Assembly (NCBI GenBank): GCA_017743475.1
Contig: JAGHYV010000048.1
Coordinates: forward strand, 1-36,830
Reading direction: 5' to 3'
Length of the DNA stretch: 36,830 bases
Origin: Roseiflexus sp.
GTDB taxonomy: Bacteria; Chloroflexota; Chloroflexia; Chloroflexales; Roseiflexaceae
A program made the position numbers and the translations under genes. The stretch's first letter is position 1. Each line of letters begins with the position of its first letter. Positions 23,326 to 36,830 of this stretch are shown one piece after another. The notes under the pieces were generated by a model. That model was given only the letters and a program-made list of their open reading frames with translations. It ran no database searches and had not been told where the DNA came from.

Positions 23326-24237
23326 ATGATGGCTGCTGATACGCTTGCTTCCGACTCCCAACCGCGCGAGGGGCGCATCGCTGCCATCCTGCGCCGTAAT
23401 GAGCGACTACAACTTGGTCTGCTGTTGTTCCCCGGTCTCTTCTGGCTTGTCACGTTCTTCGCACTGCCACTGGTCATAGTAGTCTTCTATAGTTTCGCCG
23501 TCAATGGTCCCGGTGGGCGGATCGAGTGGACGTTTACGCTGGAGAATTATCGCATCCTGTTTACGGAAAGTCTGTATGTCAACGCCTACTGGCGCTCGAT
23601 CTGGGCAGGCATCTGGACGACGCTCATCTGTCTCCTTCTGGGCTACCCTCTCGCGTACTATATCGTCCGCAGTCCGCCGCACTGGCGCACTGTGTTGCTC
23701 TTTTTGGTCCTGATCCCTTTCTGGACCAACTTTCTAGTGCGCACCTATGCCTGGATGCTTATTCTGTCGAACAATGGCATCATCAACAGTGCCATTCAGT
23801 CGCTGGGTCTGCCGCGCGTTGCGCTTTACCCTTCCGAGGGGGCAGTGCTGGTCGGTCTGGTCTACGGTAGCCTGCCGTTCATGGTGTTGCCGATCTATGC
23901 TTCGCTGTCACGCTTCGATTTTACGCTGATGGAAGCAGCTGCCGATCTGGGCGCCAGCCAGGTGCGCGCGTTTCTGAAGGTGATGCTGCCGCTGACGATG
24001 CCAGGCGTGGCTGCCGGGTCGGTTCTGGTGTTCATTCCGACGGTCGGGCAGTTTGTGGTTTCCGACCTGCTCGGCGGGGCGAAGGTTGATTATTTGGGGA
24101 ATCTGCTGCAACGCCTTTTTACCCGCTCGAATCCGCCGAACTGGCCCCTAGGGTCGGCAATGGCGATTGTCTTCATGGTTGTGCTGACCATAGCGATTGT
24201 CATCTATTTCCGTGCGACGATCGAGGAGGATCGGTGA
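23326..24237 (+). CDS. potB: Polyamine ABC transporter permease 1
   Basis: The product has 303 residues with about six membrane helices. LLFPGLFWLVTFFALPLVIV is the first, followed by a periplasmic loop (WTFTLENYRILFTESLYVNA) and LLFLVLIPFWTNFLVRTYAW, typical of PotB. The cytoplasmic EAA loop that docks to the ATPase reads LMEAAADLGASQVRAFLKVM followed by LPLTMPGV. The start is ATG 23326 or ATG 23329, 13-16 nt after potA. Permease 2 follows after an unusual 352-nt repeat-bearing gap. Confidence 0.92.
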   Translation: MMAADTLASDSQPREGRIAAILRRNERLQLGLLLFPGLFWLVTFFALPLVIVVFYSFAVNGPGGRIEWTFTLENYRILFTESLYVNAYWRSIWAGIWTTLICLLLGYPLAYYIVRSPPHWRTVLLFLVLIPFWTNFLVRTYAWMLILSNNGIINSAIQSLGLPRVALYPSEGAVLVGLVYGSLPFMVLPIYASLSRFDFTLMEAAADLGASQVRAFLKVMLPLTMPGVAAGSVLVFIPTVGQFVVSDLLGGAKVDYLGNLLQRLFTRSNPPNWPLGSAMAIVFMVVLTIAIVIYFRATIEEDR

Positions 24238-24446
24238 AGGTTGAAGGTTTGGAAGGTTGAAGGTTGAACGTTGAAGGTTGAACGTACCGTTCGATTATTT
24301 TTTGACGGATGGCTTCCTGATGCGATCTGCGACTTGACAAATAACAACCTGGCTGCGAGGACGCACCCGTTTTATGGCATCAGGAAGCCTCGCATGAAAA
24401 CAAGCGAACCGAGAGTTGAACGTTGAAGGTTGAACGTTGAACGTTG
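24238..24446. repeat. GTTGAAGGTTGAACG repeats flanking an inverted-repeat element
   Basis: Tracts built of GGTTGAA and GTTGAACGTT units occupy 24238-24285 and 24414-24446. Between them lies a perfect 13-base inverted repeat, GGCTTCCTGATGC (24311-24323) and GCATCAGGAAGCC (24377-24389), separated by 53 bp. No coding frame is present. The block splits potB from potC and resembles a small inserted element, or a stem-loop in the mRNA. The rest of the gap (24447-24589) shows only the potC ribosome site GTGGGAG. Confidence 0.7.
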
Positions 24447-27536: not shown

Positions 27537-28406
27537 ATGGCATTCAAGGACTATTACGAGATTTTGGGTGTTGACCGCAACGCAACTGATGCAGAGATTA
27601 AGAAGGCGTATCGCAAACTTGCGCGTCAATACCACCCTGACATCAATCCCGGCAACAAGGCAGCCGAGGCACGCTTCAAGGAGATCAACGAAGCGTACGA
27701 AGTACTGTCGGACAAGGAGAAGCGCGCCAAGTATGATCGGTTTGGGCGCGACTGGCAACGCTATCAGGAAGTCACCGATTTCAGCGGGTTTGGCACTGGT
27801 GATTTTGCCGATATTTTCGAGACATTGTTCGGCGGTGGGCGTGGTGTGCGCAGCAGTGTGACTTATCGTACACGAGGGCAGGACATTGAGCATGCAGTTG
27901 ATATTACGCTCGAAGAAGCCTTCAGTGGCACACAGCGCACCCTGCAACTGCAATCGCCGAACGGTCAGATACGCTCTCTGACAGTCAGAATCCCGCCGGG
28001 GGTCGATACTGGATCGCGGGTGCGGATCGCTGGCGAAGGTGCTCCCGGCATGGGTGGCGGTCCGCGGGGCGATCTCTACCTGGTGATCAATGTGGCGCCG
28101 CATCCGCGCTTCGAGCGACGCGGTGATGATCTCTACGTCCGCGTGCCAGTTGATCTGTTTACGATGCTGCTTGGCGGTGAGGTGAAGGTGCCAGCGATGG
28201 GCGGCAGGACGGTCACGCTCAAGGTGCCAGCCGGGACGCAGAACGGGAAAGTGATACGTATTAGCGGGCAGGGTATGCCGCGTTTGCGCGAATCGCAGTC
28301 GCGGGGTGATATGTATGTGACGCTTGAAGTCTCGTTGCCGACCTATCTTTCGCCACAGGAGCGCGCGCTGTTTGAGCAGTTGCGCGCGATGGCGATGGCA
28401 CGATAA
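27537..28406 (+). CDS. DnaJ/CbpA-type co-chaperone without zinc finger
   Basis: The product has 289 residues. The J domain (about 1-70) has the catalytic loop [20 protein letters not shown] with HPD at 33-35. A short G/F-rich linker ([20 protein letters not shown]) follows, and then two beta-sandwich substrate domains: [40 protein letters not shown], and [20 protein letters not shown]. The four CxxCxGxG zinc repeats of classical DnaJ are absent, so this is a type II/CbpA protein that stimulates a DnaK ATPase. No dnaK or grpE lies in the window. It is followed by hspR after 21 nt. The weak RBS (GAGCGGG) is offset by a strong promoter. Confidence 0.92.
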
Positions 28407-28427
28407 TCAGGCAGAAATATTCTGGCG

Positions 28428-28721
28428 ATGAAGCAGCGCTACTACACAATCAAAGCAGCGGCAGCGCTGTGCGGAATGCACGAGCAGAGTTTACGCCTGT
28501 ACGAGCGGCGCGGTCTTATTCGACCGCAGCGCACTCCCGGCAATATCCGTCGCTATAGCGAGAGCGATATCGAGCAGATCCGGTTCATCAAGCGCCTGAT
28601 TGACGATCTTGGCGTGAACCTCGCTGGTGTTGAAGTGATCCTGCACCTGCGGCAGCAATTGATCGATGTTCAGCGCGAACTGGAGGAATTGCGCAGTCGC
28701 CTGCCAGTCGACGCCTCGTAG
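28428..28721 (+). CDS. hspR: HspR, MerR-family heat-shock repressor
   Basis: The product has 97 residues. The MerR helix-turn-helix YYTIKAAAALCGMHEQSLRL continues into YERRGLIRPQRTPGNIRRYS and ESDIEQIRFIKRLIDDLGVN, matching HspR more closely than metal-type MerR proteins, which carry C-terminal cysteines absent here. VEVILHLRQQLIDVQRELEE is a dimer coiled coil. In actinobacteria HspR represses dnaK and clpB operons through HAIR sites, with DnaK as co-repressor. The HAIR site before dnaJ supports the same job here. It probably shares the dnaJ transcript. Confidence 0.9.
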   Translation: MKQRYYTIKAAAALCGMHEQSLRLYERRGLIRPQRTPGNIRRYSESDIEQIRFIKRLIDDLGVNLAGVEVILHLRQQLIDVQRELEELRSRLPVDAS

Positions 28722-34739: not shown

Positions 34740-35013
34740 CGCATCGTGCGGCGCAGCGGTCGGCGCCATGCGCCAGGAACGATGCTCTCGAGTGCGCCGA
34801 ACCGTCCGAGCGTCGGATCGTAGTACCGGGCACGATACTACAATAATCCGGTCGCATCAAGCCGCTGCCCGGTGAAACTGAGAACTGAGAACCGAGAACT
34901 GAGAACCGAGAACTGAGATACTGAGCACCGGGAACTGCGCTCACACTCCCCAGGTGGTCGCTGTGCAGGAAGAACGTGCTGCAGTCGCTCCGCTGCAGCG
35001 CGACCGCCCGCAA
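34740..35013 (-). pseudogene. Orphan Rhs core fragment
   Basis: On the minus strand the frame holds FFLHSDHLGSVSAVPGAQYL. After a tract encoded by the GAGAACTGAGAACC minisatellite, one register over, come FTGQRLDATGLL, then TAG, then YRARYYDPTLGRFGALESIV. These are the Rhs core-end blocks (DHLGS, G.....TGL.YYRARYYDP.LGRF). The sequence degenerates into an arginine-rich stretch without a toxin tip. Its relation to the main Rhs gene at 35808-36830 suggests a displaced copy of the core end. 34582-34739 holds nothing else I can support. Confidence 0.65.
34876..34937. repeat. GAGAACTGAGAACC minisatellite, copy 1
   Basis: About four imperfect units of GAGAACYGAGAACY run through the Rhs fragment at the point where a normal Rhs sequence has its linker between DHLGS and the TGL block. 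The translated tract reads SVLGSQFSVLSSRF. Confidence 0.75.
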
Positions 35014-35231: not shown

Positions 35232-35417
35232 CTATCTATCTCTCATTGTAACTCTAGGGCCTCTTTTCACCGCAGCTTCGATAGACTCAGAGATCATGAA
35301 TTTCACCGGACGCCCAGCGGTTAGACTAAGTTCCTCAGCAAGATCAAGGAGCCTCTGCATTTCCCGCTGTTTATCTGTCAGCAGGCTAGTCCGTGTACCG
35401 CCGCCGCGAAGTTCGAC
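35232..35417 (-). other. Open remnant in frame after the candidate immunity gene
   Basis: Directly after the TGA of the immunity candidate (35420-35418) the same frame stays open for 61 codons to TAG 35234-35232. It reads SLLTDKQREMQRLLDLAEEL and SLTAGRPVKFMISESIEAAV, a helix-strand-helix pattern that looks like real protein. It may be the tail of the immunity gene lost by a nonsense change, or what is left of an older toxin tip. Confidence 0.4.
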
Positions 35418-35795
35418 TCAGCTCAACCCTAACTTAGCCTTGCACTCCTCCTTCATCTGGGCCACTTCTTCCGCGCCGACCCTAAACCCCGCCACTACTT
35501 GCCCGATCCCTGCAAATACCAGGTCCAGATACTCGCGCACATCGGCGATCGCTTCAGGCAAGTAGATTCCGTAGACATACTCCTTGTGCCTCCGCGAGAT
35601 ATCCGGTCCTTTAACCTCGAGGTTCGTTACGCCTTGCTTCGCTACAACATAGGACCACAAGTTATAATCCGGCTTGCGCTTGAGAAACCCCTTCCATGTT
35701 GGGAAATACGCGTTCAATGTCTCTCGTATCGCCCGATGGGTTTCCGAGTGATAGGGATTCTTTGCTCCCCATTCAAGGCTTGTAAAGCGCACCAT
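35418..35795 (-). CDS. Candidate Rhs immunity protein
   Basis: The product has 125 residues from ATG 35795. The ribosome site AGGAG (35809-35805) overlaps the stop codon of the Rhs tip, and the gap is 12 nt, so translation is coupled to the toxin. It opens MVRFTSLEWGAKNPYHSETH and ends FRVGAEEVAQMKEECKAKLG. There are several aromatic and acidic residues, no signal peptide and no membrane helix, so it is likely cytoplasmic. I recognise no family. Position directly after a polymorphic toxin tip is the basis of the immunity call, which is an inference. The stop is followed by an open in-frame stretch (35232-35417). Confidence 0.5.
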   Translation of the reverse strand: MVRFTSLEWGAKNPYHSETHRAIRETLNAYFPTWKGFLKRKPDYNLWSYVVAKQGVTNLEVKGPDISRRHKEYVYGIYLPEAIADVREYLDLVFAGIGQVVAGFRVGAEEVAQMKEECKAKLGLS

Positions 35796-35807
35796 GTCTA
35801 ATCGCTC

Positions 35808-36401
35808 CTAATCTGGTCGAAAGCTCTTCTGATTGCCCGGCGGGATCCGTCGCGTGGTTTCATAATAGCGCTGCAAGGCAGCGCGCTCGGCTTGCTTTGC
35901 CTGTTGCGTTGTGACGTAGCCAAGGTCGTCAATTATCTCTGCACTGACATCCTGAAAGGTTTTGCGCAATTGACGCACCTGCTGATGCAGGCGTGTCGGC
36001 AGGCCTGACGATTGGGTCACGCGGTCGAGGTCTGCCTTGCCGAATTTGTAGGTCTCGCCGTTCCCCTTGATTTTATAGATGCCAAAGTAGCTGACGGCAT
36101 GGTTGGCATGTTTGTGCAGTTGCCCGGCTCGATGTACCGCTGCCCCCGCCGCCTCGTCCCTCGCCCGCGCCGCGTCCGCCGCGTCGTTGGCATGGCCAGC
36201 GGCTTTCGCAACCGCCCGGCCAGCATCAACCACTTCATCGCTGTGGCTGGCTGCCGCGACGGCCGCCCTGCCGCTGCGCACCACCATGCCCAAGCCGGTC
36301 AGCCCCGGCAGGAGCAGGCCGCCCACATTCGCCGCCAGCGCCAGCCCGTTGTCCCACGTCAGCCCGTTCTGGTGAATGTCCAGATATCGTCGGCGATGCA
36401 T
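35808..36401 (-). pseudogene. Rhs C-terminal toxin tip, GIY-YIG-like, out of frame with its core
   Basis: The 197-codon open frame starts inside the Rhs gene and has no true start of its own. DIHQNGLTWDNGLALAANVG and GLLLPGLTGLG match the usual pretoxin segment after an Rhs core. An alanine-rich helix (AKAAGHANDAADAARARDEA) follows. The tip domain (about 103-197) has FGIYKIKGNGETYKFGKADL (GIY at 107, YKFG at 118), GLPTRLHQQ with R137, AERAALQRYYE with E172, and RIPPGNQKSF with N190. That order of GIY, Y.G, R, E and N is like GIY-YIG nucleases. The match is by eye and the toxin class is uncertain. The frame joins the core only after two frameshifts. Confidence 0.5.
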
Positions 36402-36830
36402 GCACTGTCAACCGCGCTTTCGATCCAGTGCCCCGTCGGGTTGGTGGACTTCAGCGGGGTTGTTATGAACATAGGCATAACGGTTGAGGCTCTGCGGGTT
36501 GCCCGGCTCAGGAACGATGCTCTCCGGTGAGATGAACCATCCAAGCGCTGGATCATCGTAGCGGGCACGATACTCCAACAATCCGGTTGCATCACGCCGC
36601 TGCCCGGTGAAACCGAGAACCGAGAACCAAGAACTGAGAACCAAGAACTGAGAACCAAGAACCGGGAACTGAGCGCTGGGAACTGAGCGCCGGGAACCAT
36701 GCACGCTCCCCAGATGGTCGCCGGATGACGACGCCGCTCGCCGCTCGCCGCGCCCGTTCCCCAGCCGGTCGTAGGCATACGTCGCGCTCAGCGTCGGCGG
36801 GGCGACCGCTACAGGCGTGGGGGAGGGGGT
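36402..36830 (-). pseudogene. Rhs repeat core, 5' part beyond the window
   Basis: A frame enters from the right edge: LSATYAYDRLGN, DHLGSVHGSRRSVP, a minisatellite-encoded tract (SAQFPVLGSQFLVLSSWFSV), then GFTGQRRDATGLLEYRARYD and DPALGWFISPESIVPEPGNP followed by QSLNRYAYVHNNP. This is the conserved end of an Rhs core. It stops at 36408 without a toxin. The expected DPTGHWIESAVD-like continuation lies one register over (NPTGHWIESAVDSACIADDI), and the tip lies in the third register. Frameshifts are near 36440-36460 and 36385-36395. Rhs proteins form a sugar-repeat shell around a C-terminal toxin in contact-dependent competition. Confidence 0.75.
36611..36698. repeat. GAGAACTGAGAACC minisatellite, copy 2
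   Basis: About six imperfect units (GAGAACCGAGAACCAAGAAC and variants such as GGGAACTGAGCGC) sit in the Rhs core at the same place as copy 1. Here the tract keeps the frame open. Confidence 0.75.

Follow-up and report, generated by a model that had tools for sequence, protein, structure and literature searches.

What is left of an Rhs toxin when its C-terminal tip lies behind a damaged core and is followed at once by a small intact gene: a working toxin that has been poorly assembled, a dead remnant, or a displaced module in which the immunity gene still counts? The window analyzed here, the whole stretch of DNA under study, is an entire contig (C38, 36,830 bp) from a draft genome of 4.97 Mb, placed by its relatives in the phylum of Roseiflexus and Chloroflexus. 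The contig end lies inside an Rhs core on the minus strand. Behind this core come, in order, a junction, a pretoxin linker, a tip domain of 102 residues, and a gene encoding 125 residues. The 3' part of the core (36456..36830) scores 54.5-55.4 bits against TIGR03696 (cut-off 32.5) and contains TYAYDRLGN, DHLGSV, and FTGQRRDATGLL...NPQSLNRYAYVHNNP; it is cut by the contig end and its middle is shortened. A heptanucleotide tandem repeat array of the AACCGAG/AACTGAG type, to which no strand is assigned, lies within it (36611..36697). The junction with its linker (LKSTNPTGHWIESAVDSACIADDIW...; 36362..36454, minus strand) and the pretoxin linker, recognized from its sequence (LTWDNGLALAANVGGLLLPGLTG ... 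HANDAADAARARDEAAGAA; 36117..36361, minus strand), lead into the toxin domain (35811..36116, minus strand). An open frame of 197 codons holding the tip runs from a nominal ATG at 36401 (35808..36401, minus strand). Its TAG stop codon is at 35808-35810 and the ATG of the 125-residue gene (35418..35795, minus strand) at 35793-35795, which leaves a 12 nt gap, and an AGGAG ribosome-binding site (35805..35809, minus strand) overlaps the toxin stop codon. The initial annotation had read this spacing and the ribosome site at the stop correctly, and both recur in a second genome described below.

The core (36456-36611) and the tip (from about 36375 downward) share one reading frame. From NNP (36456) to about 36375, a three-frame translation places the homologous sequence in another frame, displaced by one base from both core and tip, before it shifts back. 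The earlier claim that core and tip are out of frame with one another thus stood in part: they are not joined in one open frame, but they lie in the same frame and only the intervening stretch is displaced. Within that stretch the core frame reaches a stop codon (36408-36410). The ATG at 36401 is probably not the true start, because no ribosome site is visible for it and it falls within the displaced segment. The core lacks its usual middle, with the heptamer array standing in place of conserved sequence. The frame displacement in the window could be an assembly error near the contig end.

Relatives of the two genes were sought in a Chloroflexota set of 400 genomes. A single homologue of the 125-residue protein (E 3e-60, 74-75% identity) and a single homologue of the tip (E 3e-38, 80% identity) were found, the latter directly upstream of the former, in G118, a complete genome of the same order as the window genome and of a different family. 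Tip and small gene therefore occur together in two of the 400 genomes and neither was found alone, a co-occurrence beyond chance. The G118 junction also reads TAG, 12 nt, ATG, with AGGA overlapping the stop codon. A profile built from the two immunity sequences and run against the order's 82 genomes recovered no additional member. The search for the same pair elsewhere that had been proposed at the outset thus returned a side-by-side pair, and within the 400 genomes no homologue of the small gene was found away from Rhs tips.

Both members of the pair are under purifying selection. Between the window and G118, dN/dS is 0.18 for the immunity gene (bootstrap 0.09-0.31) and 0.25 for the toxin part (bootstrap 0.10-0.50); the bootstrap ranges overlap and the two values do not differ significantly. 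Two of the window's housekeeping proteins share 60% identity with those of G118, versus 75-80% for the cassette proteins. Because the cassette is more alike than the two genomes are, it has probably been exchanged or moved horizontally. In G118 the toxin lacks everything before YKFG and is interrupted by a TGA, while its immunity gene is undamaged. As read from the sequences, then, both toxins are silent, having been broken in two different ways. The initial proposal that the toxin is silent while immunity is kept agrees with this pattern of a broken toxin and an intact immunity frame in both genomes, although its account of the frame was wrong in detail.

Two other readings of the broken frame must be weighed here. 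The whole cassette, immunity gene included, might be a functionless dead remnant in which the immunity frame has simply not yet degraded. We consider this somewhat unlikely. Its surroundings are full of fragments, and since the dN/dS values of toxin and immunity gene (0.25 versus 0.18) are not significantly different, with overlapping bootstrap ranges, the selection may predate the break. In contrast, the immunity frame and its ribosome site are intact in both genomes, whereas both toxins are broken. The second reading, which we regard as unlikely, is that the locus is intact, that the displacements are assembly or sequencing errors, and that a functional Rhs toxin ending in this tip is produced. 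The two displacements do cancel out, they fall within a repeat family at short G/C runs, close to where the contig ends, and the toxin part has a low dN/dS. However, the core is damaged further, having lost its middle and carrying a repeat array where conserved sequence belongs; another Rhs tip locus of the same genome, on contig C151, is likewise frame-broken; and the same toxin is broken differently in G118, a complete genome.

The tip itself carries the ordered GIY, YKFG, R, E, and N positions that the initial annotation had listed: Y109 (of GIY), Y118-K119-F120-G121, R137, E172, and a C-terminal N are all present in the 197-residue frame. The published signature of the Tox-URI2 family is Y, KxG, [EQ] (PMC3482391), which the tip matches with Y109, K119-F-G121, and E172. 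When isolated, the domain scores 18.7 bits (E 0.0022) against Pfam Tox-URI2 (PF15653), just short of the curated gathering cut-off of 20 bits, and the match covers profile positions 14-83 of 86; the full 197-codon frame gives 16.5 bits. The domain is C-terminal to RHS repeats, the Rhs core lying directly upstream on the same strand with the frame interrupted. The single-sequence AlphaFold model of the tip, which has two strands followed by helices, is too poor to use (pTM 0.27), as is that of the 125-residue protein (pLDDT 60 for the latter and 51 for the tip), and a search of PDB sequences with the tip returned no match. When 72,556 plasmids were searched by tblastn with the tip, a single place matched: in Runella slithyformis, the C-terminal end of a DUF6443 protein of the Rhs type (E 1e-3; 32% identity over 101 columns). 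This relative keeps Y, KxG, R, and E and shares the positions of the Tox-URI2 signature. The gene directly after the Runella tip encodes Imm9 (Pfam E 8e-30), one of the listed partners of Tox-URI2 (PMC3482391). Scans of genome_contigs, viral_contigs, plasmids, and phages gave no match to the tip beyond that Runella plasmid. Weak Chloroflexota matches to the tip in G145 and G241, and one to the 125-residue protein in G336, were set aside as chance; the places hit are a frame of DNA polymerase I, the strand opposite another gene, and a DNA ligase.

From the Tox-URI2 match, the Runella tip, and the G118 homologue, the tip is predicted to be a URI/GIY-YIG-type nuclease of the Tox-URI2 kind. We call it Tox-URI2-like rather than filing it as a formal member, because a model of this pTM is too poor to show its fold. 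That it is some other toxin domain in which the order of motifs is coincidental is very unlikely. The Pfam score below cut-off, the lack of a PDB sequence match, and the lack of a usable structure model would allow it, but the match covers nearly the whole profile with the catalytic positions in place, and the Runella relative retains Y, KxG, R, and E and is partnered by a Tox-URI2 immunity family.

The 125-residue protein is a candidate immunity protein by its position and its conservation in two genomes, with a homologue behind the same tip in G118 and a low dN/dS. No family was found for it in Pfam (E up to 1), NCBIfam, or PADLOC; PDB sequences gave no meaningful match, and a PDB fold search with its poor single-sequence model returned nothing below E 1. 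Scans of genome_contigs, viral_contigs, phages, and plasmids yielded no homologues. A weak match to phrog_24181 (E 0.0024, residues 70-121) was rejected, this PHROG being of unknown function and absent from the 75%-identical homologue. Homology to Imm9 was also ruled out, as the protein has no similarity to the Runella Imm9. The initial annotation had recognized no family for the gene, and these searches bear it out. Still less probable than a misread tip is that the gene encodes something other than immunity, such as a second effector, a chaperone, or a regulator. It has no family match and its structure model is too poor to tell, but it lies directly behind the tip, is translationally coupled to it, goes with just this tip, and occupies the place that Imm9 holds in Runella and Imm26 behind a neighboring GIY-YIG tip in G118. 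It is thus very probably the cognate immunity protein of the tip, and it would be expected to inhibit it.

The cassette lies in a cassette graveyard. Directly after the immunity gene, another Rhs tip, unrelated to the first, has left a C-terminal remnant (VELRGGGTRT...AVKRGPRVTMRDR; 35235..35417, minus strand). In the same genome, a tip of an Rhs protein on contig C86 matches this remnant (54% over 56 residues, E 8e-17), for which there is no Pfam family. The C86 tip (L021 2221-2403) has an internal stop. Beyond the remnant, a second Rhs core fragment (34774..34940, minus strand), also frame-broken, forms a direct repeat of 36509-36674 (85% over 167 bp). In G118 (L007 1680-1910), the linker before a different tip is homologous to that of the window (36276-36506; 79% DNA identity) and lies in an open frame; because the same linker stands before different tips, linker and tip have been reassorted. 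The long G118 island (L046, L007; 4908000-4938000) is made up of repeated ends of the core with other tips and small genes behind each of them, so that this complete genome holds an array of Rhs cassettes. Directly before the G118 cassette lie a GIY-YIG tip (PF01541, E 0.0024, 18.5 bits, below the cut-off of 22.6) and a double Imm26 (L007 6848-8376), with other broken core fragments around. A broken homologue of this GIY-YIG tip and double Imm26 pair is found in the window's genome at the end of contig C151 (L020).

Upstream of the tip the contig ends inside the core, and a long core starts contig C182 (L045 3-6242). There, an open frame of 2080 residues, with what looks like a signal peptide, runs into the contig start and ends in an Rhs core; it shares 90% identity with the window over the window's final 82 bases. 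By this sequence match, the genome has a longer Rhs core; L045 3-6242 is a candidate main Rhs protein, the tip of which is not assembled. L019 5128-13020 encodes another kind of Rhs-type protein, intact, 2631 residues long, and unrelated in its C-terminus; its gene adjoins another very long one, in what from appearance only resembles a Tc B/C-type arrangement. Within the window, a DnaJ-type gene is followed by a MerR-type regulator (27537-28721).

Heptanucleotide tandem repeats are found at the same place in the two Rhs core fragments (36611-36697 and 34876-34937), and two more heptamer arrays (TGAAGGT, GTTGAAC) lie at 24235-24446. The core repeat matches about 50 places in the genome. Since seven is not a multiple of three, slippage at the core repeats would alter the core frame. 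It is highly improbable that the 125-residue protein is the first of a new immunity superfamily restricted to tips of the Tox-URI2-like kind and that heptamer slippage toggles the toxin frame, such that the toxin would be reversibly phase-off rather than decayed.

We consider it likely that the locus is an orphan module, displaced and decayed, of a polymorphic toxin system, with a tip of the Tox-URI2 kind and its cognate immunity protein. The initial reading as a polymorphic toxin tip with a coupled immunity gene agrees with the Tox-URI2 match just below threshold, the Runella tip followed by Imm9, the adjacency in G118, and purifying selection on both genes. Orphan modules of Rhs and CDI systems consist of displaced tip fragments that lack start signals and of expressible immunity genes, and recombination can fuse them to the main rhs gene (PMC3150448, PMC3967940). 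The window has a tip fragment with part of a core and no translation start of its own, and an intact immunity gene with its own AGGAG site and a dN/dS of 0.18. Delivered by an Rhs protein, the tip would cut the DNA of a rival, and the 125-residue protein would bind and block it in the cytoplasm. In this assembly the full Rhs toxin cannot be produced, owing to the displacement and stop at the core/tip junction and to damage in the core. The immunity gene, by contrast, is intact and has a ribosome site of its own. With the toxin unmakeable and this gene preserved, the cell would most likely keep immunity to neighbors that deploy the tip; alternatively, the cassette may be kept for reuse by recombination with another Rhs core.

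Each part of this arrangement has a known counterpart. Rhs tips of the Tox-URI2 family paired with Imm9, Imm39, Imm12, or Imm44 (PMC3482391) share the C-terminal position, the Y/KxG/E residues, and a small immunity gene directly downstream, but the window tip scores just below the Pfam cut-off and its partner matches none of these four families. The Runella slithyformis plasmid pRUNSL03 (WP_013921753.1, WP_013921752.1) has a related tip with the catalytic positions and an immunity gene immediately after it; there, however, the toxin gene is intact and the Imm9 protein bears no similarity to the 125-residue protein. The orphan rhs-CT/rhsI modules of Enterobacteria (PMC3150448, PMC3967940) likewise combine a tip without start signals, an intact immunity gene, and core homology for recombination. 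In contrast, no main Rhs gene is seen beside the window module, as the contig ends there, and the window core is frame-damaged and holds a heptamer array. In Salmonella Dublin SPI-6, a Tox-URI2 tip has perhaps been split from its Rhs by mutation (PMC8867033), and there too the tip is apart from the Rhs and an unnamed downstream gene is proposed as immunity; that host has a T6SS, and the likeness drawn here is one of description.

The arrangement is thus well known, but the protector falls in no named protein family. What is new, on the sequences compared here, is likely an undescribed family of immunity proteins that is paired, in Chloroflexota, with a Tox-URI2-like tip. Chloroflexi are absent from the phyla given for Tox-URI2 (PMC3482391), so that tips of this kind are extended to Chloroflexota and a likely new immunity family is added for URI-type toxin tips. 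Orphan immunity is able to guard a cell against Rhs toxins delivered to it (PMC10539506). A broken toxin beside an intact immunity gene, seen in two genomes of different families, may be taken as a small natural test of selection for orphan immunity.
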